Source of the DNA: Verrucomicrobiota bacterium
GTDB lineage: Bacteria; Verrucomicrobiota; Verrucomicrobiia; Opitutales; Opitutaceae
Assembly (NCBI GenBank): GCA_016235555.1
Contig: JACRKC010000027.1
Coordinates: 1 to 64,000 of the forward strand
DNA length: 64,000 bases
Direction of reading: 5' to 3'
A program made the position numbers and the translations under genes. The notes beneath the pieces were generated by a model that had not been told where the DNA came from, did no database searches, and was given only the letters and a program-made list of their open reading frames with translations. Shown here one piece after another: positions 718 through 16,309 of this stretch. The stretch's first letter is position 1; each line of letters opens with the position of its first letter.

Positions 718-2952
718 TTACGCGGGTGGCGGTGCGGCGGGCGGCGGCGGCGGGTCGATACCTCCGCTTTCGAGGGTCTTGAGGCGCGCCAGTTCGGCGG
801 GGTGTTCCTCGAGCATCTCGCGCTCAGACATGCGACCGGTCAGCCACGCGAGGTTCATCGGGTAAACGTCGGGGTTGAAGATGACGAAGTAGAAGTGCCA
901 GACGATGATCGCGAGGGTGGCGAGGATCGCCTCGTAGAAGTGAATCGTGCGCGAGATATCGAAGCCGAGTTTGGAGAAGAGTCCAATCGAGGTGTTTTCG
1001 AACCAGAGGACCGCGCCGGTGGCGCCCATGAGAAGCGTGCCCCAGACGAGCGCCCAGTATTCGGCTTTCTCGATGTAGCAGAAGCGGCCGAAGGCGGGCT
1101 TGGTCGCGGAGAGGCCGAGGTTGTATTTCAGCACGCCGAACGGATCGGTGACGTCGCGCCAGTCCGGGAGCAGGTCGCGGAAGAGGCTGCGGCCGGGCAC
1201 GGTGAAAGCGAGATACCAGACGTGCCACGCTCCGGCGACGAGCATCACAACGCCCGCGATGCGATGGATCCAGTTGCGCCACTCGAAGGCGCGCGCGCTC
1301 ACATTGCGGATCGACACGACCCACCACGCCTCGGGGTAGCGCAGCATGAAGCCGGTGATGACCAGCAGCACGAAGCTGATGACGAGGAAACCATGTTGCA
1401 CGCGCTCGTGCGCGGTCATGCGCAGGTAGAGGCGGTGCGCGACGTGCTCCTCCTCGATCAGGCCCTGCTGGATCGCGAGCTTGCGCCGCGTCTTCTTCAC
1501 GAAATCGAGCAGGTTGTGCACGAACATGCCGCCGACCACGACGACGATGAGCCAGACGTAGATCGTGGAGATGATGTAGAGGATCGGGTTGTTGCCGCCG
1601 GCGCCCTGGCCGGCCTCGGGGCTGACGTGGACCTGGCCGATCGCGAAGCGGGTGTTGGCGCCGGGGTGGCACTGACCGCAGGTCTTGACGAGGTTGTCCT
1701 TGTGGACGGTGGAAGTCGGGTCGTTCTGCGATTTGATGGCGTGCGAGCTGTGGCAGCTCGCGCAATTCACGACCTCGACCGAGCCGCCGCGCACGGCGAG
1801 GCCGTGGTAGCTGTCGGCGAAAGTCTGGAACGTGTGGGAGGCGATGCCGTATTTCTTCGTGAGCTTGAGCGACGCGTGGCAGTTGGCGCACACCTGCTGC
1901 GCGACGTTGGTGGCGTGCACGGGCGAGCTCGGGTCGGTGTGCTTCTTGATGTCGTGCTCGCCGTGGCAATCGGTGCAGGCGGCCGAGTCCATGTTGCCCT
2001 TCTTGAGGGCGGCGGCGTGGGCGCTGACGGCGAATTCCGCGCCGGTCTTGTCGTGGCATTTCGTGCAGGTCTCGGCCACGTGGATTTTGTTCATCTTCGC
2101 GCTGGCGGTCATCGCGCGGTTCATCTCGTGGGCTCCGTGACAATCGACGCAGTTGGCGGCGTCGACCTGGCCCTTTTGCAGCGCGGCGCCATGCACGCTC
2201 TGGTCGAACGAGGAGACGAACTTCGTGCCGCGCAGCGCCTGGCCGGCGACGGTTTCCTTTCCGACGTGGCAGGACTCGCACTGCTTGGTCTGCGCGAGTT
2301 TCTGCGCGAGCGTGGCCTTTTCGCCCTTGATGGCGACGACGGGCTGGCGGTGGCACGTGAGGCAGTCGGGGGCGTTGGCCTCCCTGGCTTTGAACGCGCG
2401 GCCGTGGGCAGAGGCGTTGAAGTGGTCGCGGGCTTTTTCGTGGCACTTGCCGCACGACTCGGCCTGCGGGCCGTTGAAGAAGGCGAACTCGGGTTTCTTC
2501 ACGCCCGCGGTGTCGTGCTTGCCGTGGCAACCGACGCAGGAGGTGTCTTCGCCGGCCGGCATCGGCTTCAGCCCGATGCGCGGGTGAAAGGCGTGCTTTT
2601 TCGCGGTGTCCTCGTGGCAGGAAATGCAATCGACGGCGACCATCGGCTTGCGATGGGGCGTCGCGTCGCCGTCAAACTTCTCGTGGCAATCGATGCAGTC
2701 CTGCCCCTTGTGGACGGACTTCGGGAGCGTCTTCTCGTCGAGAAACAGGGAAAGTTTTTTCCCGTCCTTGCGCATCGAGAGCTCCTTGTCGGTGTGGCAC
2801 TCGAGGCAGGCGGCGTTGGAATTGGCTGCGGGCGCGGCGGGCTTGGGCGCTTCGGCCGGTCTGGCGGCATCCGCGGCGCCGAGGCTGGTGAGGAGCAGGC
2901 CGAGGCCCAGCGCGGGAACGACGGTTCGCAAAGTGGCGGCCGGGAATCGCAT
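718..2952 (-). CDS. 13-heme cytochrome c fused to membrane cytochrome b (CbcL-like quinol oxidoreductase)
   Basis: The start at MRFPAATL is chosen because it gives a clean signal peptide (residues 1-29, ending in GAADA). The frame stays open upstream, but that part has no domain. Of 744 residues, the periplasmic part (about 45-450) carries 13 CXXCH motifs, from CLECH to CGQCH. The C-terminal part (about 454-710) has several membrane helices with paired histidines (WIHRIAGVV...AWHVWYL and TIHFYEA...VWHFYF), as in formate dehydrogenase or hydrogenase-type cytochrome b. Fusion of a multiheme c domain and a b domain is the composition of Geobacter CbcL, an inner-membrane menaquinol oxidase feeding extracellular electron transfer. 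By inference it moves electrons from quinol to periplasmic cytochromes. The last residues are proline-rich. Domain order and heme spacing were not compared with CbcL itself. Confidence 0.85.
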   Translation of the reverse strand: MRFPAATLRTVVPALGLGLLLTSLGAADAARPAEAPKPAAPAANSNAACLECHTDKELSMRKDGKKLSLFLDEKTLPKSVHKGQDCIDCHEKFDGDATPHRKPMVAVDCISCHEDTAKKHAFHPRIGLKPMPAGEDTSCVGCHGKHDTAGVKKPEFAFFNGPQAESCGKCHEKARDHFNASAHGRAFKAREANAPDCLTCHRQPVVAIKGEKATLAQKLAQTKQCESCHVGKETVAGQALRGTKFVSSFDQSVHGAALQKGQVDAANCVDCHGAHEMNRAMTASAKMNKIHVAETCTKCHDKTGAEFAVSAHAAALKKGNMDSAACTDCHGEHDIKKHTDPSSPVHATNVAQQVCANCHASLKLTKKYGIASHTFQTFADSYHGLAVRGGSVEVVNCASCHSSHAIKSQNDPTSTVHKDNLVKTCGQCHPGANTRFAIGQVHVSPEAGQGAGGNNPILYIISTIYVWLIVVVVGGMFVHNLLDFVKKTRRKLAIQQGLIEEEHVAHRLYLRMTAHERVQHGFLVISFVLLVITGFMLRYPEAWWVVSIRNVSARAFEWRNWIHRIAGVVMLVAGAWHVWYLAFTVPGRSLFRDLLPDWRDVTDPFGVLKYNLGLSATKPAFGRFCYIEKAEYWALVWGTLLMGATGAVLWFENTSIGLFSKLGFDISRTIHFYEAILATLAIIVWHFYFVIFNPDVYPMNLAWLTGRMSEREMLEEHPAELARLKTLESGGIDPPPPPAAPPPA

Positions 2953-3173
2953 GATGTGTCGGATTGCTCCTGGCTGCATGATAAGCGCGATCGGGGGATC
3001 GCTCTTCGCATCGGTTGACCAATCGTAGGCGCCGATTGCGGGGCCAACCGGTGCCCCGGCCCGGGCCAAGATATGCGCAGCATCCGGCAACGGGGCGTTA
3101 GCCGCGCGGGCCGGTTTCGCGAATACTGGATGCGACCCCCGCGCTTTACCCCTAGCTCGCGTTTCAGACCCGT

Positions 3174-4868
3174 ATGTCCGCTCCCGACAGCACGCGCCCG
3201 GCCGCTGCGACCGAGGCCGATCGGCTGGCCCGATTGGAGGAGCGGCTTGCGCGCATCGAGGCACAGCTCGGGATCGTGGCGGACGCGGTGCCGCCGGCGG
3301 TGGAGGGCGCGGCCGGCCCGATGGTGGCGGCGGTCGAGGCCGGGCCGGCGGCGCACGTGCGGACGGAGGATGAGATCGAGTTCGAAGTGGGCCAGAGCTG
3401 GTTCGCGCTCGCGGGCATCGTGGTGCTGACGATCGGGGCGGGTTTCCTGATTTCGCTGCCGTTTGCCCGGCTGCCGGTGGCGGTGCCGGCGCTGGCCGGA
3501 TTCGCGGTGGCGGGGCTGCTGCTGGGCGTCACGCGGTGGTGGCGCGACGCGATCGCGCCGGTGGCGAATCCATTGTGCGGGGCGGCGATGGTGCTGCTGG
3601 GCTTCGCGACGTTGCGGCTGTTTTTCCCGGAGGCGCGACAGGTGGTGTCGATCGACTCGCTGGCGGCGCGGGGGCTTCTCCTGCTGGTCGTGGCGGGCAA
3701 TTTTTTCCTGGCGCTGCGCCGGCGTTCACCGTGGCTCACGGCGCTGGCACTGCTCACCGGCTGCGTGGCCGTGGTGGCGGCGGGCGCGGCGTGGTTTGCG
3801 CTGCCATTGTTGGCGGGCCTGGCCCTGGCCGTGGTGGCGGCGGGCCGGCGGCATGAGTGGCCGGAACTCGCGGTGGTGGCGGCGCCGATGGCGTTCGTCA
3901 CGTATCTGCTGTGGGCGCTCGGCAACCCGCTGCGGGGCGGGGCCGGGCATTTTTCGACCGAGCCGGTGATCGCGCCGTTGGTGCTGCCGCTGCTGGTGGC
4001 GGTGTTTGCGGTCGCCGCGTGGCTGCGCCCGCGGGAGGAGGCGGAGGGGCCGCGCGAGAGCGTCTTCGCGCTGCTCAACTGCGGCCTCGGTTACGGCGTG
4101 TTTCTCCTGCACACGGTGGTGGCGCGGCGCGAGGCGGTGGCGGGGATGCACGCGCTGGCTTTCGTGATTTTCGTGGGGCTGGCGGCCGGTTTCTGGATGT
4201 GGCGGCAGAGCCGGGTGGCGACGTTCTTCTACGCGATGACCGGCTACGCCGCGCTGACGGTGGCGATCTTCAAGGCCTCGGCGGTGCCGGCGGTGTTTGT
4301 CTGGCTCTCGGTGCAGAGCGTGGTCGTCGTGGCGACGGCGATCTGGTTCCGCTCGCGCTTCATCGTGGTGGCGAACTTCCTCATCTACGTGGCGATCGTG
4401 CTCGGCTACATCGTGGTGACCAAGCACGAGACGGGGATCAGCCTCGGCTTCGGCGTCGTCGCGCTCGTGAGTGCGCGCATCCTCAACTGGCAGAAGGAGC
4501 GGCTGGAGTTGAAGACCGGCCTGATGCGCAACGCCTACCTCGTGGGTGCGTTTCTGGTCTTCCCCTACGCGCTCTACCATCTCGTGCCGGTGAAATACGT
4601 GACGCTGGCGTGGGTGGGCCTGGCGGTCGGCTATTACGCGCTGAACGTGCTGATCGAAAATCAAAAATACCGCTGGATGGGCCACGCGACGCTCCTGCTG
4701 ACGACGTGCTACCTCGTGGTGATCGGCACCCGGAGCTTCGAACCGGTCTATCGCGTGCTGTCGTTCCTCGTGCTCGGCACGGTGCTGCTGGCCGTGTCGG
4801 TGGTGTTGGCGCGGATGAGGCGGCGGCGGGAATCAGGCGCGCCCTCTTCGACGTCGATGGCCCGATGA
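3174..4868 (+). CDS. DUF2339-type polytopic membrane protein
   Basis: The 564-residue protein begins with an Ala-rich soluble region containing a short coiled coil (RLARLEERLARIEAQLG, about residues 19-35), then an acidic segment (EDEIEFEVGQSWF). From about residue 80 to the C-terminus it is almost continuous hydrophobic helices separated by short basic loops. This layout (N-terminal coiled coil, G-x-x-W/F-L-x-x-x-G-I-V-x-L motif, then a dozen or more helices) matches the DUF2339 family, whose function is unknown. It is divergent from the cytochrome gene at 718-2952 and convergent with the operon ending at 4948. There is no heme motif and no evident link to electron transfer other than position. 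Confidence 0.65.
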   Translation: MSAPDSTRPAAATEADRLARLEERLARIEAQLGIVADAVPPAVEGAAGPMVAAVEAGPAAHVRTEDEIEFEVGQSWFALAGIVVLTIGAGFLISLPFARLPVAVPALAGFAVAGLLLGVTRWWRDAIAPVANPLCGAAMVLLGFATLRLFFPEARQVVSIDSLAARGLLLLVVAGNFFLALRRRSPWLTALALLTGCVAVVAAGAAWFALPLLAGLALAVVAAGRRHEWPELAVVAAPMAFVTYLLWALGNPLRGGAGHFSTEPVIAPLVLPLLVAVFAVAAWLRPREEAEGPRESVFALLNCGLGYGVFLLHTVVARREAVAGMHALAFVIFVGLAAGFWMWRQSRVATFFYAMTGYAALTVAIFKASAVPAVFVWLSVQSVVVVATAIWFRSRFIVVANFLIYVAIVLGYIVVTKHETGISLGFGVVALVSARILNWQKERLELKTGLMRNAYLVGAFLVFPYALYHLVPVKYVTLAWVGLAVGYYALNVLIENQKYRWMGHATLLLTTCYLVVIGTRSFEPVYRVLSFLVLGTVLLAVSVVLARMRRRRESGAPSSTSMAR

Positions 4869-4874
4869 GGCGCC

Positions 4875-4949
4875 GGTCGTGGACGAGGCGTCCCGCCACG
4901 TTTTGGGGAGCGGATTCAAGGCCCGAGGCGGGACGCCTCGTCCACGATC
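4875..4949. terminator. long inverted repeat between convergent genes
   Basis: Two 23-base arms (4875-4897 and 4927-4949) are complementary at 22 positions around a 29-base loop. They contain the core CGAGGCGTCCCGCC and its complement. The element lies between the 3' ends of two convergent genes and its right arm overlaps the TGA of the minus-strand gene. It may act as a bidirectional terminator, but there is no T-run and it also resembles the dispersed palindromes elsewhere in the window. Confidence 0.5.
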
Positions 4950-5451
4950 AGTGGCCGCAACCGCAGCCTGTGCCGCAGCCGGACGAAGGTGCGTCCGCCA
5001 GGTCGGATTCGGCGCCGAAGCCGAGTTGGTCGGCGGCGTCGCAGATCAACGCGTAGTATTCGTCACGCGTGAGGCCGAGGGCGGCGGCGCCGAAGGTCTC
5101 GGCATCGTCGGAGGAGGCAAACACGCCGTAGTTCACGGCGACGAGCTGGTAGAGCACCAGGGCGGGCACGAGTTCGGGCTGCGTCTGGTAAACCGGATGC
5201 ACGCACATCGTGAAGCCATCCTCGGGGCGGTCGCCTTTCTGCACGGGTTGCGCGAACTCGCCGGGCAGGAGCTGGCGGTCGTCGAAGGCGATTTCAACCG
5301 GATAGCGGACGTAGGCACGATCGCCGAGCAGGCGTGTCAGCGACACCCAATCGATCGTCGGACCGTATTTGGAAAAAATCTCGAGGCCCTTCGTCCCGAC
5401 GTGGGCGGCGAGAGACTGCTTGGCGTCGTCGGCGGTGAGTTGCTGGGCCAT
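4948..5451 (-). CDS. small soluble protein with Cys-rich C-terminal tail, last gene of the NrfD operon
   Basis: This 167-residue protein has no signal peptide or membrane segment. The body is not recognised. The extreme C-terminus reads SSGCGTGCGCGH, a compact cluster of three cysteines and a histidine that could bind a metal ion or an Fe-S precursor. The start lies 4 bases after the NrfD-like gene, which indicates translational coupling and a role in the same complex. An assembly or chaperone function for the membrane iron-sulfur complex is a reasonable but unproven idea, by analogy with dedicated cytoplasmic chaperones (TorD/NarJ) of such operons, although no sequence similarity to them is visible. 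Confidence 0.6.
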   Translation of the reverse strand: MAQQLTADDAKQSLAAHVGTKGLEIFSKYGPTIDWVSLTRLLGDRAYVRYPVEIAFDDRQLLPGEFAQPVQKGDRPEDGFTMCVHPVYQTQPELVPALVLYQLVAVNYGVFASSDDAETFGAAALGLTRDEYYALICDAADQLGFGAESDLADAPSSGCGTGCGCGH

Positions 5452-5455
5452 GGCG

Positions 5456-7153
5456 TCAGGCGAGCGCGGGTTTGTCCTCGTTGGCCTTGGTCATGCGGCC
5501 CTGGAGGATCGGCACGCTCATGCGGAGGAAGACGGTGTAGCAGAGGAGGCCGAACGCCCAGATGCCGAAGCACACGAGCGTCTCGTTGAGGGACGGGCTG
5601 TATTCGACGATCGCGCCCATCGGCGTCGGGATGAAGCCGGGGATCACGAGGCCCATGCCCTTTTCGATCCAGATGCCGACGATGCAGCAGATGCACGCGA
5701 GATCGAGCCACCGGAGACTGCGGCTGATCGGCAGGATGAGGAGCACCATGCCGATCACGTTGAGCGCGACGGCGCTCCAGATCCACGGGACGAGCGCGTG
5801 GTGGCCGTGCAGACCGAGGAAAAGATATTTCGACGACGCGACGTGGAGGTTGCCGGAGTAGAATTCCTTGAAGACCTCGTTCGCGAGGAGGAACACATTG
5901 ATGATCATCGCGACCTGCACGATGCCGCGCAGGGTGAGCAGCGCGTGGTCGGTGATCATCAGTCGCTCGGCCATGCGCGAGCGCACGAGCTGGGCGAATT
6001 CCGGCGTCTCCATGAGCACGCGCAGCGAATCGACGGGCAGGCGGAGCACGCGGGATTTTTCCTCGGCGATGGCGGTGGCGGCGCGGGGCGTGCCGTGGAG
6101 CGCCGAGACTTCGCCGAATTGATCGCCGGGGCGGGCCGTGCGCGTGACACGGGCGCGGCCCGCCTCGGCGCGCTTCACGACGACGTGGCCTTCGAGGACA
6201 AAAAACGCGAACGGCGAGGTCGTGCCCTGGCGCAGGAGCACGTCGCCGGGTGCGACGGCGATGACCGAGGCGCCGGCGAGCGCGCGCTCCCGCGCCTCGA
6301 CCGGGACGGACGAGAGTTCGGGCAGTTCGCGGTTGAGCTGATCGAGATCGCTGAGCGTGGCGTTCGCGCCGGTCCGGTCGCCGACATCGGCGCCGGCTTC
6401 CAGCTCCTGCGCGGAGCCGGAGGCGGTGACGCGACGGATGACTTGCAGCGCGAGAATGATGAGCGCCGGGCCGGCGGCGAACGCGGAGGCGAGGAAGCGG
6501 GGACCGACAATCGCGGAGTTCCAGAACGGCCGCCCGCCGAGGCCGACATAGAGGAACGCGGTGACCGTGTGAATCGAGACCGCCCAGACGATGGCGATGA
6601 AGACGAAGGGAATGTAGAACCACTTCGCGGGTTTCCTCCCCTGGTAGCGCTGGTAGATCAGGTAGCCGCAGATGTGGACGTTCAGCAGCAGGTAGCCGTT
6701 GAGCACGATCACGTCCCAACTGAGCATTGACCGCGGGAAATTCATCTGCCCGATGATCGGGATGAGGTGCCAGAAGCGGTCGGGCCGGCCGAGGTCGACC
6801 GTCACAAACAGGAGGCACATGATGATCGCGGCGACGGCGAGCAGTTCGCCGAAGATCACGAGGTCGTGCAGTTCCTCGTTGTCGTAGATGTAGACCGGAA
6901 TGACCATCATCACGGCGGCGGCGGCGACGCCGACGAGGAAGGTGAAGTTGGCGATGTAGACGCCCCACGAAACCTCGTCACTCATGCCGGTGACGGTGAG
7001 GCCGTGGACGAACTGTTTGCAGTAGGCGTTGAGGCCGATGAGGGCGATCGCGGTGAGCACGCCCATCCACGTGTAGTAGCGCCAGTCGCCCTCGGTCGCC
7101 GCACGCGCGCAGCGCAGGAGGAAGCGGGTGTAGTTGCGGACGGCGGTGATCAT
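5456..7153 (-). CDS. NrfD/PsrC-family membrane subunit with an inserted cyclic-nucleotide-binding domain
   Basis: The 565-residue protein has hydrophobic helices at about 28-45, 65-90, 98-118, 145-168, 178-203 and 215-240, then again from about 405 to 545. This is the multi-helix quinol-binding NrfD type, including the signature VDLGRPDRFWHLI (118-131). Between the two halves lies a soluble segment (about 245-400) with a complete cyclic-nucleotide-binding fold: PGDVLLRQG (302-310), FVLEGHVVV, and the phosphate-binding cassette FGEVSALHGTPRAAT (346-360), where Glu348 and Arg357 are the ribose- and phosphate-contacting residues. This cassette is close to that of protein kinase A regulatory subunits. 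NrfD proteins pass electrons between quinone and a partner Fe-S protein, encoded just upstream here (gap 64 bases). The insertion suggests gating by cAMP or another nucleotide. I know of no described NrfD with this insert. Confidence 0.85.
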   Translation of the reverse strand: MITAVRNYTRFLLRCARAATEGDWRYYTWMGVLTAIALIGLNAYCKQFVHGLTVTGMSDEVSWGVYIANFTFLVGVAAAAVMMVIPVYIYDNEELHDLVIFGELLAVAAIIMCLLFVTVDLGRPDRFWHLIPIIGQMNFPRSMLSWDVIVLNGYLLLNVHICGYLIYQRYQGRKPAKWFYIPFVFIAIVWAVSIHTVTAFLYVGLGGRPFWNSAIVGPRFLASAFAAGPALIILALQVIRRVTASGSAQELEAGADVGDRTGANATLSDLDQLNRELPELSSVPVEARERALAGASVIAVAPGDVLLRQGTTSPFAFFVLEGHVVVKRAEAGRARVTRTARPGDQFGEVSALHGTPRAATAIAEEKSRVLRLPVDSLRVLMETPEFAQLVRSRMAERLMITDHALLTLRGIVQVAMIINVFLLANEVFKEFYSGNLHVASSKYLFLGLHGHHALVPWIWSAVALNVIGMVLLILPISRSLRWLDLACICCIVGIWIEKGMGLVIPGFIPTPMGAIVEYSPSLNETLVCFGIWAFGLLCYTVFLRMSVPILQGRMTKANEDKPALA

Positions 7154-7217: not shown

Positions 7218-8162
7218 TCATTTGTCGAAGTAGTAGAAGAATCGCGGCGAGGTGCCCATTTCCTCCTTCAACTGGATGAACACCCGCTTGGTTTTCAGGA
7301 TGAACGAGACCTCGCTCTCGGGGTCGAGGATGTTGCCAAATTTGCGCGCGCCGACCGGGCACACCTCAAGGCATGCGGGGTAACGGCCGGCGCGCGTCCG
7401 CTGAATGCAGAAATGACATTTCTCCATCACGCCCTGCTTGCGCGGCCGGTTGCCGAGGTAGGCCATGTTGGGATTGACGCGGTCCTTCGGGATCTGCGGC
7501 TTGGCAAAATTGAAGCGCCGCGCCCAGTAGGGGCACGCGGCCTCGCAGTAGCGGCAACCGATGCACCAGTCGTAATCGATCACCGTGATGCCGTCCTTCT
7601 CCTGCCAGGTGGCGTTGACGGGGCACACCTTCACGCAGGGCGGGTTTTTGCACTGCTGGCACTGCACCGGCATGTAGAAGAACCCGGGTTCGGGCACCTG
7701 CTTCGCGTCGTAGTTGTGCTCGGCCTTCTCGATGTCGAGCGAGCCGTGCGGGAGGCGGAGGACGCGGATGTATTGGATCTCGGGGCTGCGCGACTGGTTG
7801 TTCTCGGCCACGCAGGCGTGCACGCATTTGCGGCAGCCGATGCAGCGCGTGAGGTTGAGGCAGTAGACGAACTCGACGCCATCCATCGGCTTGAGGTCGC
7901 GCACATGCGGGCGCACGCCGTATTGCTTCTCGACCTCGCCCTCGATGCGCTTGAGCACCCGGGCCATTTCGTCCGGCGTGAGCTCCTTGTAATACTTCTG
8001 GAGGAACTGCTCGGTGTTGGTGAATTCATCCAGCTCGCGCAGCGGCGACAGGCTGGCCGCGAGGGCGGTGAGTCCGCCGACCGCCGCCGTGCCGCGCAGG
8101 AAGCTGCGGCGGGTCATCGCGGCGTCGGAGGTCTTGTCCGGGGTAGGCGAGGGAAGCGGCAT
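7218..8162 (-). CDS. Tat-exported ferredoxin-like protein with four [4Fe-4S] clusters (DsrO/HmcB/PsrB type)
   Basis: This 314-residue protein begins with a twin-arginine signal (MTRRSFLRG at residues 16-24, then a hydrophobic Ala/Leu stretch), so it is folded in the cytoplasm and exported. Four cysteine groups are present: CIGCRKCVHAC, CQQCKNPPCVKVC, CIGCRYCEAAC and CHFC...CLEVC. This is the pattern of the electron-transfer subunit that partners NrfD-family quinone subunits. It should sit on the periplasmic face between the NrfD-like subunit and the cytochromes. The stop of the tetraheme cytochrome gene lies one base before its ATG, and the NrfD-like gene follows after 64 bases, so these are subunits of one complex. 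Confidence 0.9.
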   Translation of the reverse strand: MPLPSPTPDKTSDAAMTRRSFLRGTAAVGGLTALAASLSPLRELDEFTNTEQFLQKYYKELTPDEMARVLKRIEGEVEKQYGVRPHVRDLKPMDGVEFVYCLNLTRCIGCRKCVHACVAENNQSRSPEIQYIRVLRLPHGSLDIEKAEHNYDAKQVPEPGFFYMPVQCQQCKNPPCVKVCPVNATWQEKDGITVIDYDWCIGCRYCEAACPYWARRFNFAKPQIPKDRVNPNMAYLGNRPRKQGVMEKCHFCIQRTRAGRYPACLEVCPVGARKFGNILDPESEVSFILKTKRVFIQLKEEMGTSPRFFYYFDK

Positions 8163-8163
8163 G

Positions 8164-8835
8164 TCAGTGGGCGGGCTGGGCGGTGGCGGGGGCCGGATGC
8201 GGATCGCGCAACGGATGCGGTCCGGGCGCGGGCTCGCGGCCGCCGATGCGCGGGGCGTGCGGATTGTGGCAGTTGGCGCAACTCAGCCGTTCGGCCGCGC
8301 CGCGTTTGCGATCCCAGTAGCCGCTGATGCGGCCGTGGGCGCCGGCCTCCCAGTCGCGGTAGGTCGGGCCGTGGCAACTGCCGCAGAGCGCGGGGATGTT
8401 GTCGAATTTCACGTCCTGGCCGGCGCGGGCCTGGAGCGTGACGAGAGTCTGTTCGTTGTGGCAGTTCCAGCAGTGGTCGTTGCGGTCGTGCGAGCCGTGC
8501 CCCATCACGATGTTCGAGTGCTCCTTCGGGATGATGATCTTGTGCTTGTCGTCGAAGCGGATCGGCGGCGGTTTGCCCTTCTCGTGGCAGCCGTAGCAAT
8601 CGTAGTCGGAGAGATCCTCCTTGGCCTTGACGAGGTCGGCGTAGGTTTTGCGCCACGGCGTCGTATCGAGGAATTTTTTGTCAACGAGCGGCAGCGGCTT
8701 CTGCGGCTCGACATGGCCCCAGAGGTTTTTGGCGAACATCGCGGCGAGGGCGACGAACAGGAGCGTGACGCCACCGAGCCAGAGGTTGGTGCGGCCCGCC
8801 GGAGCGGGGGGCGTCGGCCGGGGGGGAGTTTCCAT
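8164..8835 (-). CDS. membrane-anchored tetraheme cytochrome c
   Basis: A short basic, proline-rich N-terminus is followed by one hydrophobic helix (about 18-40, LWLGGVTLLFVALAAMF) that should anchor the protein with its domain in the periplasm. The 223-residue protein has four heme-binding motifs: CYGCH, CWNCH, CGSCH and CANCH. The tail after the last heme is rich in proline and histidine. A membrane tetraheme cytochrome with an Fe-S protein and an NrfD subunit reproduces the composition of Geobacter Cbc4 (CbcS-CbcT-CbcU) and of Hmc/Qrc-like complexes. It probably exchanges electrons with the small soluble cytochrome encoded just upstream. Spacing to both neighbours (30 and 1 bases) indicates one transcript. 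Confidence 0.85.
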   Translation of the reverse strand: METPPRPTPPAPAGRTNLWLGGVTLLFVALAAMFAKNLWGHVEPQKPLPLVDKKFLDTTPWRKTYADLVKAKEDLSDYDCYGCHEKGKPPPIRFDDKHKIIIPKEHSNIVMGHGSHDRNDHCWNCHNEQTLVTLQARAGQDVKFDNIPALCGSCHGPTYRDWEAGAHGRISGYWDRKRGAAERLSCANCHNPHAPRIGGREPAPGPHPLRDPHPAPATAQPAH

Positions 8836-8865: not shown

Positions 8866-9198
8866 CTATTTCCTGGCGAACGCGCGCACGACGGGCACGA
8901 GGGCCTTCATCTCGGCCTCGCTCAGGCCCTCGATGGGCTTCATCGAAAGTTTGCCGTCCTTGTCCTTGACCCCCTCCTTCATCGATTTCACCGCCTGCTC
9001 GTCGGTGAACTTGGCCTGCACCTTGGCGTCGGTCAGATCGGCGATGCCGAGTTTCCTGCCCATCTTGGTGTCGCCCTTGCCGTCGGCCCCGTGACATTTG
9101 GCGCACTGGCTTTCCCAGTTGGCGGCGGCGTCGGCGCCGAAGGCCGTGAGGGCGAGGCCGGAGAGGAGGACGGCGAGGGGGCGGAGGGAGGACTTCAT
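8866..9198 (-). CDS. periplasmic monoheme cytochrome c
   Basis: The start MKSSLRPL gives a 110-residue precursor with a signal peptide (about 1-25, ending GADAAA). The frame is open further upstream, but that extension is low-complexity and not plausible. The single heme motif is CAKCH, and Met in GKLSMKP is the probable second iron ligand, as in class I cytochromes c. It is the first gene of the operon running to 4948. By context it is a soluble shuttle between the membrane complex and another periplasmic or outer-membrane acceptor such as the octaheme cytochrome encoded divergently at 9494. Confidence 0.85.
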   Translation of the reverse strand: MKSSLRPLAVLLSGLALTAFGADAAANWESQCAKCHGADGKGDTKMGRKLGIADLTDAKVQAKFTDEQAVKSMKEGVKDKDGKLSMKPIEGLSEAEMKALVPVVRAFARK

Positions 9199-9493
9199 GG
9201 TCGGGAAGGGTCGGGACAAACGAAGGATGGTTGCTGAGGTGTGAGTGAAGCGCCGCGGCGGTGCGGTGCCGCCACTATCGCCGAGATGCGCCGCGCCGAC
9301 TCTCCGCATCTTGGCTGGCACGGCGCATTTCTTGCCAACGGTGGTCGCGGATTTTGCCCGGCCGGCCGAGGACAACCGCCGGGTGAACGTCGCCAACCGT
9401 TGCGCAGCCACGGCCAGAAACCGCCGGCATAATGGAGGCGCAATTACGCCTCCTCCACCGCCAACCCCAACCATAAACCGCTGATACTACATC
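9199..9493. promoter_or_regulatory. divergent control region with a perfect hairpin
   Basis: This 295-base gap separates the two divergent electron-transfer units, so it should hold both promoters. A perfect inverted repeat, GGAGGCGCAATTACGCCTCC (9434-9453), lies about 40 bases before the octaheme cytochrome gene and right after CATAAT, a possible -10 box. It could be an operator or a 5' leader hairpin. No confident -35 box was assigned, and no equivalent hairpin was found upstream of the second conduit. Confidence 0.4.
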
Positions 9494-10276
9494 ATGAGCC
9501 CCCAACCCCGTTGGACTAAAAGCACCCTCATCTTCGGGGGCGCGGCGCTGTGGGGCGCCGTGCTCGTCGGATGTGTGATGGTCAACCGCACCATGCTCGC
9601 GCCGCCGGCGATCCCCGGCGCCGCCCTCGTCGGCAACAAACAGTGCGCCGAATGCCACGAGGAGCAGACCGCGCGTGCGTCGAGTGCGACGCACGCGAAG
9701 GTCGCGCTCGCGCAGGATCCGAAACTCGGCCCGACGAGCTGCGAAGCCTGCCACGGCCCCGGCTCGCTCCACGTGAAGGCCGGCGGCAGCAAGGGCACGA
9801 TCATCAATCCGCAGAAGAACTCGGAGACGTGCTTCTCCTGCCACCTCGACAAGCGCGGCACGTTCATGCTGTCCAACAGCCACCAGGTGCTGAACGGCAA
9901 GATGTCCTGCGGCGACTGCCACGACCCGCACGAGGGCAACGCCCTCAAGGGTTCCGGCGCCTCGATCGAAAACGAGATCGAGACCTGCACCAAGTGCCAC
10001 ACCGCGCAGAAGGGCCCGTTCGTCTTCGTGCACAACGCGATGAAGGAAGGCTGCACGGCCTGCCACAACCCGCACGGCTCGGTCAACGCGAAGATGCTCC
10101 TCGCGCGTGACGCCAACCTCTGCCTGCGCTGCCACCTGCAGACGACCTCCACCAACGGCACGATCTTCGCCGGCGGCGAGGATCACCGCACGCGCCTGCA
10201 GGGCGGCACCTGCTGGATCGCCGGCTGCCACGAGACCATCCACGGCTCCTATTCGAGCAAACCCCTCCGCTACTAA
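9494..10276 (+). CDS. MtrA/DmsE-like octaheme cytochrome c, conduit 1
   Basis: This 260-residue protein has a short basic N-terminus, one hydrophobic stretch and a lipobox-like LVGC (25-28), so it may be a lipoprotein rather than a freely soluble protein. Heme motifs are CAECH, CEACH, CFSCH, CGDCH, CTKCH, CTACH and CLRCH, plus an eighth with wider spacing, CWIAGCH (CX4CH). The segments CEACHGPGSLH and ACHNPHG are typical of the MtrA/DmsE decaheme family, which is larger (about 300 residues or more, ten hemes). In MtrAB the cytochrome plugs an outer-membrane barrel and carries electrons through the outer membrane. The barrel gene follows after 20 bases. A paralogue is at 30177-30977. Confidence 0.85.
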   Translation: MSPQPRWTKSTLIFGGAALWGAVLVGCVMVNRTMLAPPAIPGAALVGNKQCAECHEEQTARASSATHAKVALAQDPKLGPTSCEACHGPGSLHVKAGGSKGTIINPQKNSETCFSCHLDKRGTFMLSNSHQVLNGKMSCGDCHDPHEGNALKGSGASIENEIETCTKCHTAQKGPFVFVHNAMKEGCTACHNPHGSVNAKMLLARDANLCLRCHLQTTSTNGTIFAGGEDHRTRLQGGTCWIAGCHETIHGSYSSKPLRY

Positions 10277-10296
10277 CCCTCAGCCAACCGAACGCA

Positions 10297-12510
10297 ATGA
10301 ACGCAAATAATTCATTCACCCGCACGGCTGGCCTGCTGGCTGGTGCGCTGCTCCTCCTCTCCGGTGCGTCCCTCGGCCGCGCCGCCAACGCGGAAGCCGA
10401 CGCGCTTCCGACGTTCCACGAAAACTTCCTCAAGGTCGGCGTCTCGCCCGCCAACGTCAGCGACAGCAAGGCCGGCTTCATGGCCCGCACGCAGATGTTC
10501 CGCAAGGGCTCCGCCGGCATCGAGGAGTTCAACGTCACCGAGGAACTCGACAAGACCACGACGCTCACCGTCGACGGTCGCGCGCTGCTCGGCGCCGAGG
10601 ACTACCTCGCCTCGTTCAAACTCACGAAGACCGAGGTCGGCTCCTTCGAGGCCGGCTACAAGAGCGTGCGCACGTTCTACGACGGTGCGGGCGGCTTCTT
10701 CCCGATCAACAACGCCTGGCTGCCGCTCTACTCGCGCCAGCTGTTCGTCGATCGCGGGGCCTTCTACGTGAACGGTGCGATCAACCTGCCAAAGGCTCCC
10801 GTGTTCACGTTCAGCTACCGCAACGAAACCCGTTCCGGCCGCAAGGACTCCACGATCTGGGGCGATACCAATCAGACCGGCATCCCGATCTACCGGCCGA
10901 CGTCGCTCAATCTTGTGTCGGCGAGCCGCAAGCTCATCCCCGCCTACATCAACCTCAGCGAGCGTAGAGAGACCTGGGAGGTCGCGATGAAGCAGACGGT
11001 CGGCGCCACCAGCTACCGGTTCTCGATCCTCGGCACCAAGATCAACAATCACGATACGCGCACCGTGGATCGCAACCCAGGCGAACTCAGCCCGCGGCCG
11101 GCGTTGCCCTCCAACCCGACGCCTCCGTTGCTGGTCTCGCCCTTCCTGGCTGCGAACCAGACCAAGGGCACCGACATGATGGGCCTCAAGGAGGACGGGC
11201 TCACCCTCTCGGGCAGGATCGAGACCAAGCTCAGCGACAGCGCCAAGGTGTTCCTCAGCCTCAGCCAGCACCACAGCGAGGGCGATCTCGCGCAGTCCCG
11301 TCTCATCACGGCCTACATCATGACCGACGCCGGCCTCACGACCACGGTCGGCGGCTACACCCCCGGCGGTCGCTCGCCGTATTCGCAGAGCGGCTCCGGC
11401 ACGATCAAACAGGATGTGTTCACCGGCGTGGTCGGTCTCGAATTCAAGCCGACGCGCGATCTCGAGATGACCGCGGGCCTCAAGGGCGAAGACCTCCAGA
11501 TCGAGGGCAACTACACCGCCAACTACGTGCTCAACATGGTCACGCTCACGACCGGCGCCGTCGCGCCGCAGTCGCTCACCGCGCCCAATTCGACCAAGAT
11601 CAGCGAGTCGCCATGGGTGCCCGAGCTGTCCGGGCGCTACACCGGTGTGAAGGACATGGCCTTCTGGTTCATGTGGGACTACAGCACGCTCAAACAGGAC
11701 GAGCGCAACAGCTACGTCGGCCTCACCACCAGCACCGGCCCGATGGTGCTCACCGCCCCCTCGGGCGCCAATGCGCGCGTCAAGGACCGTCACTCCAACC
11801 TGAAGGTCGGCGCCAACTGGACGCCCAACTCGATGATCATGGTCCGCGGCGAAGTGTTCACCAAGGATCACGAAAATAACTTCACGGGCCAGGGCACCGC
11901 GCTCGGCAGCTACTACATCCTCGACTACGACACCTACGGCGCCCGCGTGACGGCCACCGTCAAGCCGATGCCCGGCCTCTCGTTCTCGACCCGCTACCTC
12001 GTGCAACGCGGCAAGGCCGAGATCGCCGAGGATGGCTACGTGCACACCAACTCGAACGACTCGCGCCGCTACCAGCTCTCCGAGACGGTCGACTGGAATC
12101 CGAACAAGTCCGTCTACGTGCAGGGCAACCTCTGCATGTTCTGGGATACGATCGGCACCGTGTATCCGCGCGCCGGTGGCGCCGCCAACGACGTGCTCCA
12201 CAATGCCGACAACAACTTCTGGAACGCCAGCGTCGTCACCGGCTACGTCGTCGACAAGGACACGGATGCGCAGATCCAGGGCACCTACTACAAGGCCAAC
12301 AACTGGAATCCCTCCCTCGCCGCGGCGACCACGCCGTATGGCCAGGGCGGCAAGGACTACAGCGTCACCGTCGGCCTGAAGCACAAGTTCAGCGACCGGC
12401 TCGTCGGTTCGGCGAAAGTCGGCTATTTCAAGAGCGACAGCGAGACCACCGGCGGCTTCGCCAACTACAAGGGCACCATCGGCTGGCTGACGCTCGACTA
12501 TAAACTGTAA
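10297..12510 (+). CDS. MtrB/PioB-like outer-membrane beta-barrel, conduit 1
   Basis: The 737-residue precursor has a signal peptide (about 1-30, ending GRAANA). The rest is alternating polar/hydrophobic strands with many aromatic residues, ending in a short final strand (TLDYKL), the pattern of a large outer-membrane barrel. Length and pairing with a multiheme cytochrome fit MtrB/PioB, which sheath MtrA. The motif SGRKDSTIWG recurs in the paralogue at 30997-33249, as do DGAGGFF/DGVGGFF and the C-terminal region. The CXXC motif near the N-terminus of Shewanella MtrB is absent. Assignment to the MtrB family is by context and architecture, and strand count was not computed. Confidence 0.75.
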   Translation: MNANNSFTRTAGLLAGALLLLSGASLGRAANAEADALPTFHENFLKVGVSPANVSDSKAGFMARTQMFRKGSAGIEEFNVTEELDKTTTLTVDGRALLGAEDYLASFKLTKTEVGSFEAGYKSVRTFYDGAGGFFPINNAWLPLYSRQLFVDRGAFYVNGAINLPKAPVFTFSYRNETRSGRKDSTIWGDTNQTGIPIYRPTSLNLVSASRKLIPAYINLSERRETWEVAMKQTVGATSYRFSILGTKINNHDTRTVDRNPGELSPRPALPSNPTPPLLVSPFLAANQTKGTDMMGLKEDGLTLSGRIETKLSDSAKVFLSLSQHHSEGDLAQSRLITAYIMTDAGLTTTVGGYTPGGRSPYSQSGSGTIKQDVFTGVVGLEFKPTRDLEMTAGLKGEDLQIEGNYTANYVLNMVTLTTGAVAPQSLTAPNSTKISESPWVPELSGRYTGVKDMAFWFMWDYSTLKQDERNSYVGLTTSTGPMVLTAPSGANARVKDRHSNLKVGANWTPNSMIMVRGEVFTKDHENNFTGQGTALGSYYILDYDTYGARVTATVKPMPGLSFSTRYLVQRGKAEIAEDGYVHTNSNDSRRYQLSETVDWNPNKSVYVQGNLCMFWDTIGTVYPRAGGAANDVLHNADNNFWNASVVTGYVVDKDTDAQIQGTYYKANNWNPSLAAATTPYGQGGKDYSVTVGLKHKFSDRLVGSAKVGYFKSDSETTGGFANYKGTIGWLTLDYKL

Positions 12511-12676: not shown

Positions 12677-15600
12677 ATGCCTTCCCCCGCGCCCGCTTCC
12701 GATCCGCTCGCCGCCTTCATCGCGCGCTGGTCCGCCGCCGGTTCCGCCGAGCGCGCCAACTACGTCCTGTTCCTGACCGAGCTGTGCGACGTGCTTGAGG
12801 TGCCGCGCCCTGTTCCCGCGAGCGACGACACCGCGCACAATGCCTACGTGTTTGAGCGCGCCGTCCCGCTCCACCAGCGCGACGGCAAAACCACCACCGG
12901 CCGCATCGACCTCTACAAGCGCGGCTGCTTCGTGCTCGAGGCCAAACAATACGCCGCCGAAACCCCCGCCGCCGAACCCGCCCAGCTCGCGCCCGCCCTC
13001 GATGCCCCGCCCGCGAAGAAATCCACCATCGCCCGCGGCTCCGCGGCTTGGGACGACGCCCTGCTCAAGGCCCGCGGCCAGGCCGAGCGCTACGCCCGCA
13101 ACCTCCCCGCTGGCGAGCCCACGCCGCCGTTTCTCCTCGTCGTCGATGTCGGCCACGTGTTCGAGCTGTTCGCCGACTTCTCGCAGCAGGGCAAGGCCTA
13201 CCTGCCGTTCCCCGATGCCCGGGCCAACCGCATCCGCCTCGCCGACCTCCGCGACGAAAAGATCCGCGCCCGGCTCCGCGCCGTCTGGCTGGAGCCGCTC
13301 ACGCTCGACCCCGCGAAAATCTCCGCCGCCGTCACGCGCGACGTCGCCCGCTACCTCGCCGAGCTCGCGAGACACTTCGAGCACCAGCACGACCCCGCCA
13401 CCGTCGCCGCGTTTCTTTCGCGCTGTCTCTTCTGCATGTTCGCCGAGGATGTCGACCTGCTCCCGCGCGACGCGTTCACCCAGCTCCTCGAATCCGTGCG
13501 GGGCGACCCCGCCGCCGCCGTGCCGCTGCTCAAGGCGCTCTTCGAGGAGATGAACCGCGGCGGCTACTCGCTCGCCCTGCGCAGGACGCTCCTCCACTTC
13601 AACGGCGGCCTCTTCGCCGAGTCCGCCGTGCTTCCGCTCGACAGCCCCACGCTCGGCCTCCTCATCGCCGCCGCGAAGCTGGACTGGAAACACGTCGAGC
13701 CCGCCATCTTCGGCACCCTGCTGGAGCGCGCCCTCCATCCGGCCGAGCGGCACAAGCTCGGCGCCCACTACACCCCGCGCGCCTACGTCGAGCGCCTCGT
13801 GCTGCCCACCGTGGTCGAGCCGCTGCGCGAGGACTGGGAACACGTGCGCGCCGCCGCCGTCACCCTCGCCAGCCGCGGCGACCTGAAAGGCGCCATCCAG
13901 GAGACGCGCGCCTTCCACCACCGCCTCTGCGCCGTGCGCGTGCTCGATCCCGCCTGCGGCTCCGGCAACTTCCTCTACGTCGCCCTCGAACACCTCAAGC
14001 GCCTCGAAGGCGAGGTCCTCCAGCTCGCCGAGGCCTTCGGCGAAAACATGCGCCTCGACATCGGCGGCGAGACCGTCGACCCGCACCAATTCCTCGGGAT
14101 CGAGCTCAACCCCCGCGCCGCCACCATCGCCGAGCTCGTGCTCTGGATCGGCTACCTCCAATGGCACCACCGCAACCGCGGCGCCACCGAGTGGCCCCAG
14201 CCCGTGCTCCGCGCCTTCCACAACATCGAGTGCCGCGACGCCGTGCTCGCCTGCGACCGGAAGGAATTCGCCAGGGACGCCGCCGGCAAGGTGCGGTTCG
14301 TCTGGGACCGGAAGACGATGAAAACCGATCCCGCCACCGGCCGCGAAGTGCCCGACGACAAAGCCGTCGTCCCGCTCGAGACCTTCGTCAACCCGCGCCC
14401 CGCCGGGTGGCCGCAGGCGGAGTTCATCGTGGGCAATCCGCCGTTTCTGGGAAAAGGCAAGATTCGCGAGGATCTGCGGGACGGTTACGTCGAGACGCTG
14501 CGTGAAGTTTACGAAGACGTGCCCGACAGCGCCGACTTCGTGATGTATTGGTGGCACAAAGCCGCGGAAGAAACGCTGGCAGGCCGCACGCGGCGCTTCG
14601 GTCTCATCACCACCAACAGCATCAAGCAGACATTCAATCGCCGGGTCGTGAAGCGCGCCTTGATGGAAGGAGTCTCGTTGCGCTTCGCGATTCCCGATCA
14701 CCCGTGGGTGGACACCGTCGACGGTGCCGCTGTTCGCATTGCGATGACGGTTGGTGCGCTCGGCCACCCGAATGCAGAGAAGTGGATGCTCTCCGAACCG
14801 CCGCCCCCCGACCCTTCGGCGTTTGCTGGCGATCTGCTCGTTGTCACTCACGAAACATCGAAGGACGACGGTTCGGCCGATGTCTTGTTTGCGATTCTCC
14901 ACGGGCGGATCGGCTCGGGCCTTAACATTGGAGCGGAGCTCGAAGACGCTGTGGCGCTCAAGGCGAATGATGCGCTTGCGAGCACCGGCCTTATTCTCGG
15001 CAGCCGCGGCTTTGTGCTTTCGCGTTCCGAAGCGGACGCAATCAAGCGCCGCGATAAGAACGCCTCCGCGATCATCTTTCCGCTGCGAAATGGCGAAGAC
15101 CTAACCGACAAACCCCGGGACGCATTCGTCATCGACACGCACGAACTCAGCGAAGACGCGCTTCGGCACAACTACCCCGTCGTTTTCGATCATCTCAGGA
15201 GCACCGTCTTCGAGGACCGGAAAACCAATCGCGATCCCAAGCTCAGAAAACTTTGGTGGTTGTTTCGTCGTAGCAACGAGCAGGTGCGGGGCGCCATCGC
15301 TGGCCTCCAGCGTTACATCGTCACAGTCGAAACCACCAAGCATCGCGTTTTTCAGTTTCTGTCTGCGAACACCAAACCGGAGCATGTTCTGATCGTGGCG
15401 GGATTGGAGGACGCCTTTCACCTCGGCGTCTTGAGCAGCCGCATCCACGTCGTTTACGCGCTTGCTGCCGGTGGCACGCTCGAAGATCGGCCGCGTTACA
15501 ACAAGACCCGCTGTTTCGATCCGTTCCCGTTTCCTGACTGCACGGAGAAGCAGAAGGCGAAAATCCGCGCGCTGGCCGAGGAACTCGACGCCCACCGCAA

Positions 15601-16309
15601 GCGTGCGCAGGCACAGCACGGCATCGGCCTCACCGATCTCTACAACGTGCTGGAAAAAATCCGGAAGGTGGAGCGCGTTGACCCCAACGCGCTTGCCTTG
15701 GACGGCGGCGGAAAAAACGCGTTGAGGTCAACGCGTTCCACCTCCGAATCAGCGGTGCTCACGCCGAAGGAAAAACACCTCCACGACCAGGCGCTCGTCG
15801 CCACGCTCCGCCAGCTCCACGACGATCTCGATGCGGCCGTGGCCGACGCCTACGACTGGCCCTGGCCGCTCGGCGACGATGACATCCTCGCCCGCGTGGT
15901 CGCCCTCAATGCCGCCCGCGCCGCCGAGGAAGCGAAAGGCATCGTCCGCTGGCTCCGCCCCGATTACCAACAGCCGCTCTTCGCGGGAGAAAAACAATCC
16001 GATCTCGGGCTCGCGCCGGCCGATGGTGCGGGCGGGGCGTTGCGCTCCGACCAACCGGGCGGGAGAAAGCCGGGGCATAAGGCCCCTCCCACCACGACCG
16101 CGAAAAAGGCCGCCTGGCCGAAGACCCTCGCCGAGCGCGTGCGCGCCGTGGAAACCATGCTCGCCGCCGAAGAAAAGCCCGCCACCGCCGCCGGCCTGGC
16201 GAAAAAGTTCTCCCGCGCCGACGGGACCGTGATTGCCGAAATCCTGCAAACGCTCGTCACCCTCGGTCGCGCCCGCCCCGGCGACGCCGGCGGGACGTTT
16301 GTGCGGTAA
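12677..16309 (+). CDS. single-chain MmeI-like restriction-modification enzyme (type IIG/IIL)
   Basis: This 1210-residue protein combines nuclease and adenine methyltransferase. Near the N-terminus Asp78 and VLEAK (86-90) form a PD-(D/E)xK nuclease motif. The S-adenosylmethionine motif DPACGSGNF lies near residue 424 and the catalytic NPPF near 586 (GNPPFLGKGK), followed by a target-recognition region and a C-terminal winged-helix-like segment (AWPKTLAERV onward). MmeI-type enzymes methylate one strand of their site and cut some 20 bases away, and need no separate restriction subunit. None is seen here. Two dispersed palindromic repeats sit in frame inside the gene (15666-15743 and about 16069-16093), in a loop after LYNVLEKIRK and in the linker before the C-terminal domain. 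They may or may not affect activity. Confidence 0.85.
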   Translation: MPSPAPASDPLAAFIARWSAAGSAERANYVLFLTELCDVLEVPRPVPASDDTAHNAYVFERAVPLHQRDGKTTTGRIDLYKRGCFVLEAKQYAAETPAAEPAQLAPALDAPPAKKSTIARGSAAWDDALLKARGQAERYARNLPAGEPTPPFLLVVDVGHVFELFADFSQQGKAYLPFPDARANRIRLADLRDEKIRARLRAVWLEPLTLDPAKISAAVTRDVARYLAELARHFEHQHDPATVAAFLSRCLFCMFAEDVDLLPRDAFTQLLESVRGDPAAAVPLLKALFEEMNRGGYSLALRRTLLHFNGGLFAESAVLPLDSPTLGLLIAAAKLDWKHVEPAIFGTLLERALHPAERHKLGAHYTPRAYVERLVLPTVVEPLREDWEHVRAAAVTLASRGDLKGAIQETRAFHHRLCAVRVLDPACGSGNFLYVALEHLKRLEGEVLQLAEAFGENMRLDIGGETVDPHQFLGIELNPRAATIAELVLWIGYLQWHHRNRGATEWPQPVLRAFHNIECRDAVLACDRKEFARDAAGKVRFVWDRKTMKTDPATGREVPDDKAVVPLETFVNPRPAGWPQAEFIVGNPPFLGKGKIREDLRDGYVETLREVYEDVPDSADFVMYWWHKAAEETLAGRTRRFGLITTNSIKQTFNRRVVKRALMEGVSLRFAIPDHPWVDTVDGAAVRIAMTVGALGHPNAEKWMLSEPPPPDPSAFAGDLLVVTHETSKDDGSADVLFAILHGRIGSGLNIGAELEDAVALKANDALASTGLILGSRGFVLSRSEADAIKRRDKNASAIIFPLRNGEDLTDKPRDAFVIDTHELSEDALRHNYPVVFDHLRSTVFEDRKTNRDPKLRKLWWLFRRSNEQVRGAIAGLQRYIVTVETTKHRVFQFLSANTKPEHVLIVAGLEDAFHLGVLSSRIHVVYALAAGGTLEDRPRYNKTRCFDPFPFPDCTEKQKAKIRALAEELDAHRKRAQAQHGIGLTDLYNVLEKIRKVERVDPNALALDGGGKNALRSTRSTSESAVLTPKEKHLHDQALVATLRQLHDDLDAAVADAYDWPWPLGDDDILARVVALNAARAAEEAKGIVRWLRPDYQQPLFAGEKQSDLGLAPADGAGGALRSDQPGGRKPGHKAPPTTTAKKAAWPKTLAERVRAVETMLAAEEKPATAAGLAKKFSRADGTVIAEILQTLVTLGRARPGDAGGTFVR
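15666..15743. repeat. palindromic dispersed repeat, family 1, inserted in frame in a gene
   Basis: Two 30-base arms (15666-15695 and 15714-15743) are near-perfect inverted copies with the core GGAGCGCGTTGACC / GGAACGCGTTGACC. The 78-base element equals 26 codons and adds an Asn/Ser/Thr/Arg-rich segment between LEKIRK and LTPKEKHLHDQ, where related enzymes are expected to read straight through. Other copies are at 49220-49299 (complete) and 59768-59797 (half). Confidence 0.8.
16069..16093. repeat. dispersed repeat, family 2, inside the MmeI-like gene
   Basis: This 25-base core (centre GGGGCATAAGGCCCC) matches 47201-47225 at 23 of 25 positions. Here it codes for part of the linker segment reading GRKPGHKAPPTTTAK, just before the C-terminal domain. 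The surrounding bases from about 16033 may belong to the same insertion. Confidence 0.65.

Follow-up and report, generated by a model that had tools for sequence, protein, structure and literature searches.

The stretch of DNA analysed here (64,000 nucleotides, hereafter the window) derives from a draft Verrucomicrobiota genome of 140 contigs, and carries on its minus strand a gene running from an ATG at position 7153 to a stop codon at 5456 (5456..7153), which encodes 565 amino acids with no internal stops. A preliminary description had placed the gene at these coordinates, without giving the strand, and had proposed an NrfD-type quinone subunit with a cyclic-nucleotide-binding (CNB) domain built into its middle. 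Profile searches with both families that it had named bear this out: the Pfam NrfD model (PF03916) matched residues 54-245 with 134.9 bits (cut-off 25.8; E 6.3e-39), and the cNMP_binding model (PF00027) matched residues 300-382 with 65.6 bits (cut-off 27.5; E 3.9e-18). Furthermore, the NCBIfam DsrP equivalog model NF045798 matched the protein in two stretches (419.8 bits; cut-off 350), and also matched 76/76 aligned members of the family at E<=1e-5, a threshold on E-values rather than on individual scores against the model cut-off. Accordingly, the gene product is a quinone subunit of the NrfD type, DsrP-like, in which about residues 255-399 make up a complete CNB domain. All of its parts lie on the minus strand. 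The N-terminal NrfD part (residues 1-243; 6425..7153) comprises helix A and core helices 1-5, and is followed by an inserted module (residues 244-399; 5957..6424) consisting of a variable linker (244-262) and the CNB domain proper (about 263-397), which includes a phosphate-binding cassette (residues 345-361; 6071..6121) with E348 and R357. The C-terminal NrfD part (residues 400-565; 5459..5956) comprises core helices 6-8 and helix B, the numbering of core helices being our own mapping by analogy to ActC. Pfam reported no match in this C-terminal part; it is spanned by the alignment with insert-free homologues and adopts the NrfD fold in the model described below.

The NrfD gene belongs to an operon whose order, common to loci with and without the insert, is cytochrome, 4-heme cytochrome, Fe-S protein, NrfD and a 167-aa protein. 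In the window, all on the minus strand, these are a monoheme cytochrome c (8866..9198), a cytochrome with four CxxCH motifs (8164..8835), an Fe-S protein with a twin-arginine-like start (7218..8162), the NrfD gene, and the conserved 167-aa protein beside it (4948..5451). The open reading frame listed for the monoheme cytochrome starts at 9474, and we infer a start at 9198, ahead of a signal-like sequence. Of the NCBIfam models, DsrO scored best for the Fe-S protein, its 169.9 bits falling short of the cut-off of 200, and the Pfam TAT_signal match of this protein was likewise too low at 20.4 bits (cut-off 22.7). The 167-aa protein matched no Pfam or NCBIfam family; its predicted structure (pLDDT 90) bears a weak likeness to IrrE/PprI/selecase-type folds (best Z 8.5), Foldseek yielded no match at E<=1e-3, the listed sequence contains no HExxH, and the tail is rich in Cys and Gly. 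Divergent from the operon, on the plus strand, are an MtrA/DmsE-like multiheme cytochrome (9494..10276) with seven CxxCH motifs and one longer motif, matched by the NCBIfam DmsE and GSU2203 models below their cut-offs, and its likely outer-membrane barrel partner (10297..12510), for which one weak Pfam barrel match, below cut-off, was obtained. Also identified was a minus-strand gene (718..3264, upstream start unsure) for a multiheme protein in which 13 CxxCH motifs and a membrane domain of the cytochrome b561 type share one chain, a candidate for a second route from quinol to multiheme cytochromes. Beyond the barrel gene lies a 1210-aa open reading frame (12677-16309, plus strand) with an NPPF motif, presumably a methyltransferase-restriction enzyme of the MmeI kind.

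Alignment of the membrane part to ActC of R. marinus (6f0k_C) paired D120 with His139, S142 with Ser164, D147 with Asp169 and K498 with Arg395. According to a review of NrfD-like subunits, His139, Ser164, Asp169 and Asp253 of ActC form the quinone site and Arg395 is the proposed gate, whose counterpart in DsrP of D. vulgaris is Lys329 (PMC8076601). All four residues of the window protein are invariant in 76 rows comprising homologues with and without the insert, and in wider counts D120 was found in 85/85 and K498 in 83/83 sequences. The third quinone-site residue of ActC, Asp253, is not kept, and aligns with a leucine (L201). Judged by these residues, the membrane part looks functional. A true DsrMKJOP sulfite/sulfate system was considered and rejected: no DsrA match was found at E<=1e-3 in the window genome, a draft estimated to be 98.6% complete, and no protein in the whole genome, the Fe-S neighbour included, exceeded the DsrO cut-off. 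Given these two results, the complex is not a sulfate-reduction complex. The same genome also encodes a second, insert-free DsrP-like paralogue (contig C120, locus L139, NrfD gene at 18484-19707), with a DsrO-like gene immediately before it.

To place the insert in three dimensions, we examined an AlphaFold2 model built from 76 aligned rows (mean pLDDT 82.8, pTM 0.82). The membrane part superimposed on ActC of alternative complex III (6btm_C) with Z 33.4 and an rmsd of 3.3 over 374 residues spanning 14-553, and the model together with the ActC alignment displays the two four-helix bundles and 8-10 membrane helices of the NrfD fold, in both the first and the last part of the protein. Model helices cover residues 24-54, 65-89 (break at 83), 93-120, 143-170, 177-205 and 216-242 in the N-terminal part, and 402-432, 457-478 (break at 474), 480-502 and 522-550 in the C-terminal part. 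Between them, residues 263-397 form a CNB fold with beta-roll, helical N-terminal motif and C-helix, and align with the CNB domain of MlotiK1 with Z 16.5 and an rmsd of 2.0 over 125 residues. The preliminary description had left the side of the membrane on which the domain lies to structure prediction; on the helix count mapped from ActC, the model puts the domain in the loop between core helices 5 and 6, and a cytoplasmic position of this loop is probable, on account of an excess of lysine and arginine on the insert side (mean K+R of 10.3 over 54 loop residues, vs 4.4 over 85 residues on the opposite side, in 35 insert-free rows) and of the twin-arginine-like start of the Fe-S partner. The CNB helix at 384-395 closely precedes core helix 6 (402-432) and might act as a lever, with a mean pLDDT of only 66 at the proposed joint (391-400). 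Loops 121-140 and 431-460 are modelled with a mean pLDDT of 55-60. On the other side of the domain, the long, variable linker to core helix 5 could uncouple it from the membrane part.

Within the insert, the cassette is intact, as had been claimed: Glu348 and Arg357 occupy the positions given in the preliminary description and are invariant in 48 rows, together with F346, G347, S350, L352 and A361. These rows comprise the window protein and 47 loci drawn from the best 80 of 562 relatives, a further locus (L081) stopping before the cassette; the Gly-Glu plus Arg pattern of PF00027 was present in 48/48. Also invariant in 48/48 rows is R397, the last residue to align with position 348 of MlotiK1 (by structure and sequence) and position 632 of HCN2 (by structure), which we take to be the ligand-contacting C-helix arginines of those proteins. 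The cassette glutamate, the cassette arginine and the C-helix arginine make the ribose, phosphate and base contacts of cyclic nucleotide sites. Sequence matches of the CNB part were to PKA, PKG, Epac, MlotiK1, HCN and CRP-type structures. On this evidence the insert appears competent for nucleotide binding, and a 3',5'-cyclic nucleotide is the ligand class that the conserved residues support. A threonine after the cassette arginine is a mark of cGMP-selective sites. This threonine is not conserved after R357 (n=48: M 17, T 12, V 7, A 5, L 3, E 2, and others), making cAMP the first guess and the probable ligand.

The variability at this position would equally suit a CNB fold adapted to some other ligand, such as a cyclic dinucleotide or a cyclic pyrimidine nucleotide, or one with a purely structural role; CNB folds are known both with other ligands and without any. 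The domain also diverges more than the membrane part, mean pairwise identity being 79% in the cassette, 56% in the remaining CNB domain and 21% in the linker, vs 85% and 81% in the two membrane parts. The invariance of the cassette Glu and Arg and of R397 in every row argues against such a ligand or role, which we regard as distinctly unlikely. Across 484 non-independent pairs with high dS, the median dN/dS was 0.33 in the CNB part and 0.13 in the NrfD part, and a value of about 0.33 indicates that the CNB part is under purifying selection. We also considered a tie between the insert and cyclase content and rejected it, class III cyclases having been found in 37/37 genomes examined, 18 with and 19 without the insert. 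Since cyclases are equally present without the insert, their presence is compatible with a cAMP ligand and does not discriminate. The window genome itself encodes five class III cyclases, none of them on the contig of the window.

The draft state of the window genome leaves room for a frame error, a chimeric assembly or a chance resemblance, the first two of which the preliminary description had itself named as fatal to its reading, along with an absence of related genomes sharing the insertion. A search of 57 genomes, one of them the window's own, recovered the complete architecture in seven others (74-84% identity) and, divided between two contigs, in an eighth; further genomes carry both membrane parts uninterrupted by any insert. 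A scan of one genome per species, from which the best 80 of 562 relatives were kept, identified the insert at a conserved point in 48 loci (L034-L081) and its absence in 32 (L082-L113). The flanks are separated by 154-165 residues in 47/48 insert-bearing loci, the exception being L081, which is truncated by its contig end, and by exactly 4 residues in 32/32 insert-free loci; upon translation, none of these 80 loci contained an internal stop. Because the same continuous frame recurs in many separate genomes, the architecture is real, and with E-values far below chance an artefact can be ruled out for practical purposes. All 80 loci come from metagenome-assembled genomes, of which 75 bear Verrucomicrobiota names, 3 are named 'bacterium' and 2 are assigned to Klebsiella or Proteobacteria; these two labels look wrong, because the rows in question group with Verrucomicrobiota rows on the tree. 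More broadly, four loci (L067, L068, L091 and L112) labelled Klebsiella pneumoniae, Proteobacteria or Akkermansia muciniphila appear to represent an environmental Verrucomicrobiota locus under labels that are probably wrong.

Closer examination of the window's own family revealed matches at E<=1e-30 in 69/200 genomes. Among these, 23 possess the insert (in 3 cases on broken contigs), 31 possess an insert-free orthologue, defined by our own bound of more than 450 bits for the first half, and 15 possess only a more distant form. In none of the 200 family genomes searched do both orthologous forms occur together, and within each of six genera (g7, g16, g17, g58, g59 and g61) both are represented. 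Across a sample of the phylum, 17/387 genomes matched at E<=1e-40, five of them with the insert and all five in the window's family; with 5/387 sampled genomes carrying it, the insert is rare across the phylum. The 57-genome, best-80-loci and 200-genome sets overlap, and their counts are not additive. The hosts of the CNB-bearing subunit form one group of soil and freshwater bacteria. From a plasmid collection, seven records matched, in none of which a single place spanned 80% of the query. One insert-free relative (L142; 48.6%), on a plasmid of Flammeovirga kamogawensis (Bacteroidota), is annotated as a sulfate-reduction subunit, and adjoins NapD and a molybdopterin oxidoreductase in its operon, indicating that NrfD modules can serve different acceptors.

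On a tree of 83 rows constructed without the insert columns, presence of the insert required 11 trait changes (bootstrap 9-12), at least 3 of them forced by strongly supported branches; this careful tree is preferred to an earlier quick tree, on which 9 changes were counted and at least 5 were forced. A single gain or loss was rejected, being found in 0/200 bootstrap trees, and the division of changes into gains and losses is affected by the root and by recombination. The insert is an optional module, gained or lost among otherwise orthologous subunits. This refines the preliminary description in two respects: the NrfD part groups with DsrP-like subunits, and the inserted domain may be present or absent among congeners. 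In quick trees of 74 rows, columns flanking the insert yielded 5 changes vs 13-14 for distal columns, which suggests either exchange of the module together with its flanks by recombination or co-adaptation of neighbouring residues. The patchy distribution and the flank effect would also be expected of a functionless selfish or neutral element moving between alleles by recombination. With an invariant cassette, purifying selection and 80 loci of uninterrupted frame set against it, we consider such an element very improbable.

An association of the insert with a different operon was likewise rejected, the operon being alike with and without it. Among the best 80 of 562 relatives, the Fe-S gene accompanies 46/48 insert-bearing and 31/32 insert-free loci, the missing three beginning inside the NrfD gene. 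Respective counts are 46/48 and 30/32 for the 4-heme cytochrome and 23/48 (four of them below 31% identity) and 13/32 for the MtrA-like match, many loci being short. Since orthologues without the CNB domain occupy the same operon, the domain is dispensable to the complex. The 9-12 gains and losses that the tree requires are more than expected of a vital control function, and count against such a role. Alternatively, a nucleotide-binding domain could help the complex to assemble or oligomerise, or dock a cytoplasmic partner, rather than control turnover, and CNB domains often serve as dimer or docking modules. The linker, long and variable on one side, and the low confidence with which the joint to core helix 6 is modelled would fit this alternative, as would the 167-aa neighbour as a possible partner, found at 43/48 insert-bearing loci (not always adjacent, e.g. 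L054). However, that neighbour is nearly as common without the insert (26/32), which argues against a dedicated partner, and the close succession of the CNB helix and core helix 6 in the model suggests mechanical coupling. We therefore rate assembly or docking as a credible but unlikely account of the insert.

Our preferred reading, to which we give somewhat better than an even chance, is that the complex is a quinol:cytochrome c oxidoreductase that a cyclic nucleotide, probably cAMP, would tune directly through the inserted domain. The NrfD protein would be its membrane, quinone-binding subunit, partnered on the periplasmic side by the Fe-S protein and c-type cytochromes. Electrons would probably be passed to periplasmic multiheme cytochromes and a porin-cytochrome conduit on the way to a putative final acceptor. 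In the cytoplasm, the CNB domain would bind a 3',5'-cyclic nucleotide, most likely cAMP, and binding could move the C-helix, positioned just before core helix 6. This movement may alter the second four-helix bundle, with its proton half-channel and gate lysine, and the altered bundle would set the rate of proton-coupled quinol oxidation, such that the CNB domain may gate the reaction.

Control of respiratory complexes is attributed mostly to gene expression, substrate and proton-motive force. As to the broader proposition, that a second messenger (probably cAMP) directly gates a respiratory quinone oxidoreductase by way of a sensor module subject to gain and loss, we consider the case evenly balanced. 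If true, a second messenger would control respiration directly, through a conserved and seemingly ligand-competent domain set between two helices of the quinone subunit, and the export of electrons from the quinol pool would respond immediately to a cytoplasmic signal rather than through transcription. Because the operon is shared by close relatives that have the domain and close relatives that lack it, the effect of the domain is open to natural comparison, and the optional domain might provide a handle on a possible involvement of the second helix bundle of NrfD proteins in proton-coupled quinol oxidation.

Several known systems share elements of this arrangement. In the channels MlotiK1, SthK and HCN2, a helix similarly connects a CNB domain to a transmembrane bundle, and MlotiK1 is the best structural match to the CNB domain of the window protein. 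In cyclic-nucleotide-gated and HCN channels, the CNB domain comes after the final membrane helix and gates the pore; in the window protein, by contrast, it lies between two helices of a redox subunit, with its C-helix ahead of the next helix. The mycobacterial acetyltransferase Pat (Rv0998; structure match Z 16.3) likewise combines a cAMP-type CNB domain and an enzyme in one chain, and a model of Pat matches 45/76 of the aligned proteins, including the window protein at residues 298-391. Pat is soluble, has its CNB domain at the N-terminus and performs no electron transfer. An optional domain of this kind is also found in encapsulins, where shell proteins of family 2b carry a CRP/FNR-type CNB domain and those of sister family 2a do not; these are soluble shell proteins, not membrane redox subunits (PMC8049743). 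A CNB protein is tied to a redox enzyme in Rhodococcus equi, where it is encoded beside a group 3b hydrogenase, there as a separate gene and with a soluble enzyme; NrfD and CNB are likewise separate proteins in that report (PMC13332983).

Among NrfD-like subunits, DsrP of DsrMKJOP, ActC, PsrC, QrcD and HybB resemble the window protein in fold, helix plan, quinone-site and gate positions and Fe-S partner, and, unlike in the window protein, no inserted ligand-binding domain was noticed in the part of the review that covers them, the words 'cyclic', 'fused' and 'fusion' being absent from its main text (PMC8076601). DsrMKJOP differs further in its DsrO and DsrA, as set out above. The preliminary description knew of no described example, and none appeared among the matches listed in searches of titles and abstract beginnings in the open-access literature; the pairing of NrfD and CNB domains may well be listed in architecture databases. 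With respect to the destination of the electrons, the closest parallel is provided by freshwater Verrucomicrobia, for which extracellular electron transfer has been proposed from porin-multiheme cytochrome clusters (PMC5615132; see also PMC6344600). The main text of the former contains 0 occurrences of 'cyclic'. These clusters combine an 8-heme periplasmic cytochrome with a porin, like positions 9494-12510 of the window, and in the passages considered their inner-membrane step carries only the general label 'ET in IM' (PMC5615132), a step that the NrfD complex may represent in the porin-multiheme extracellular route.
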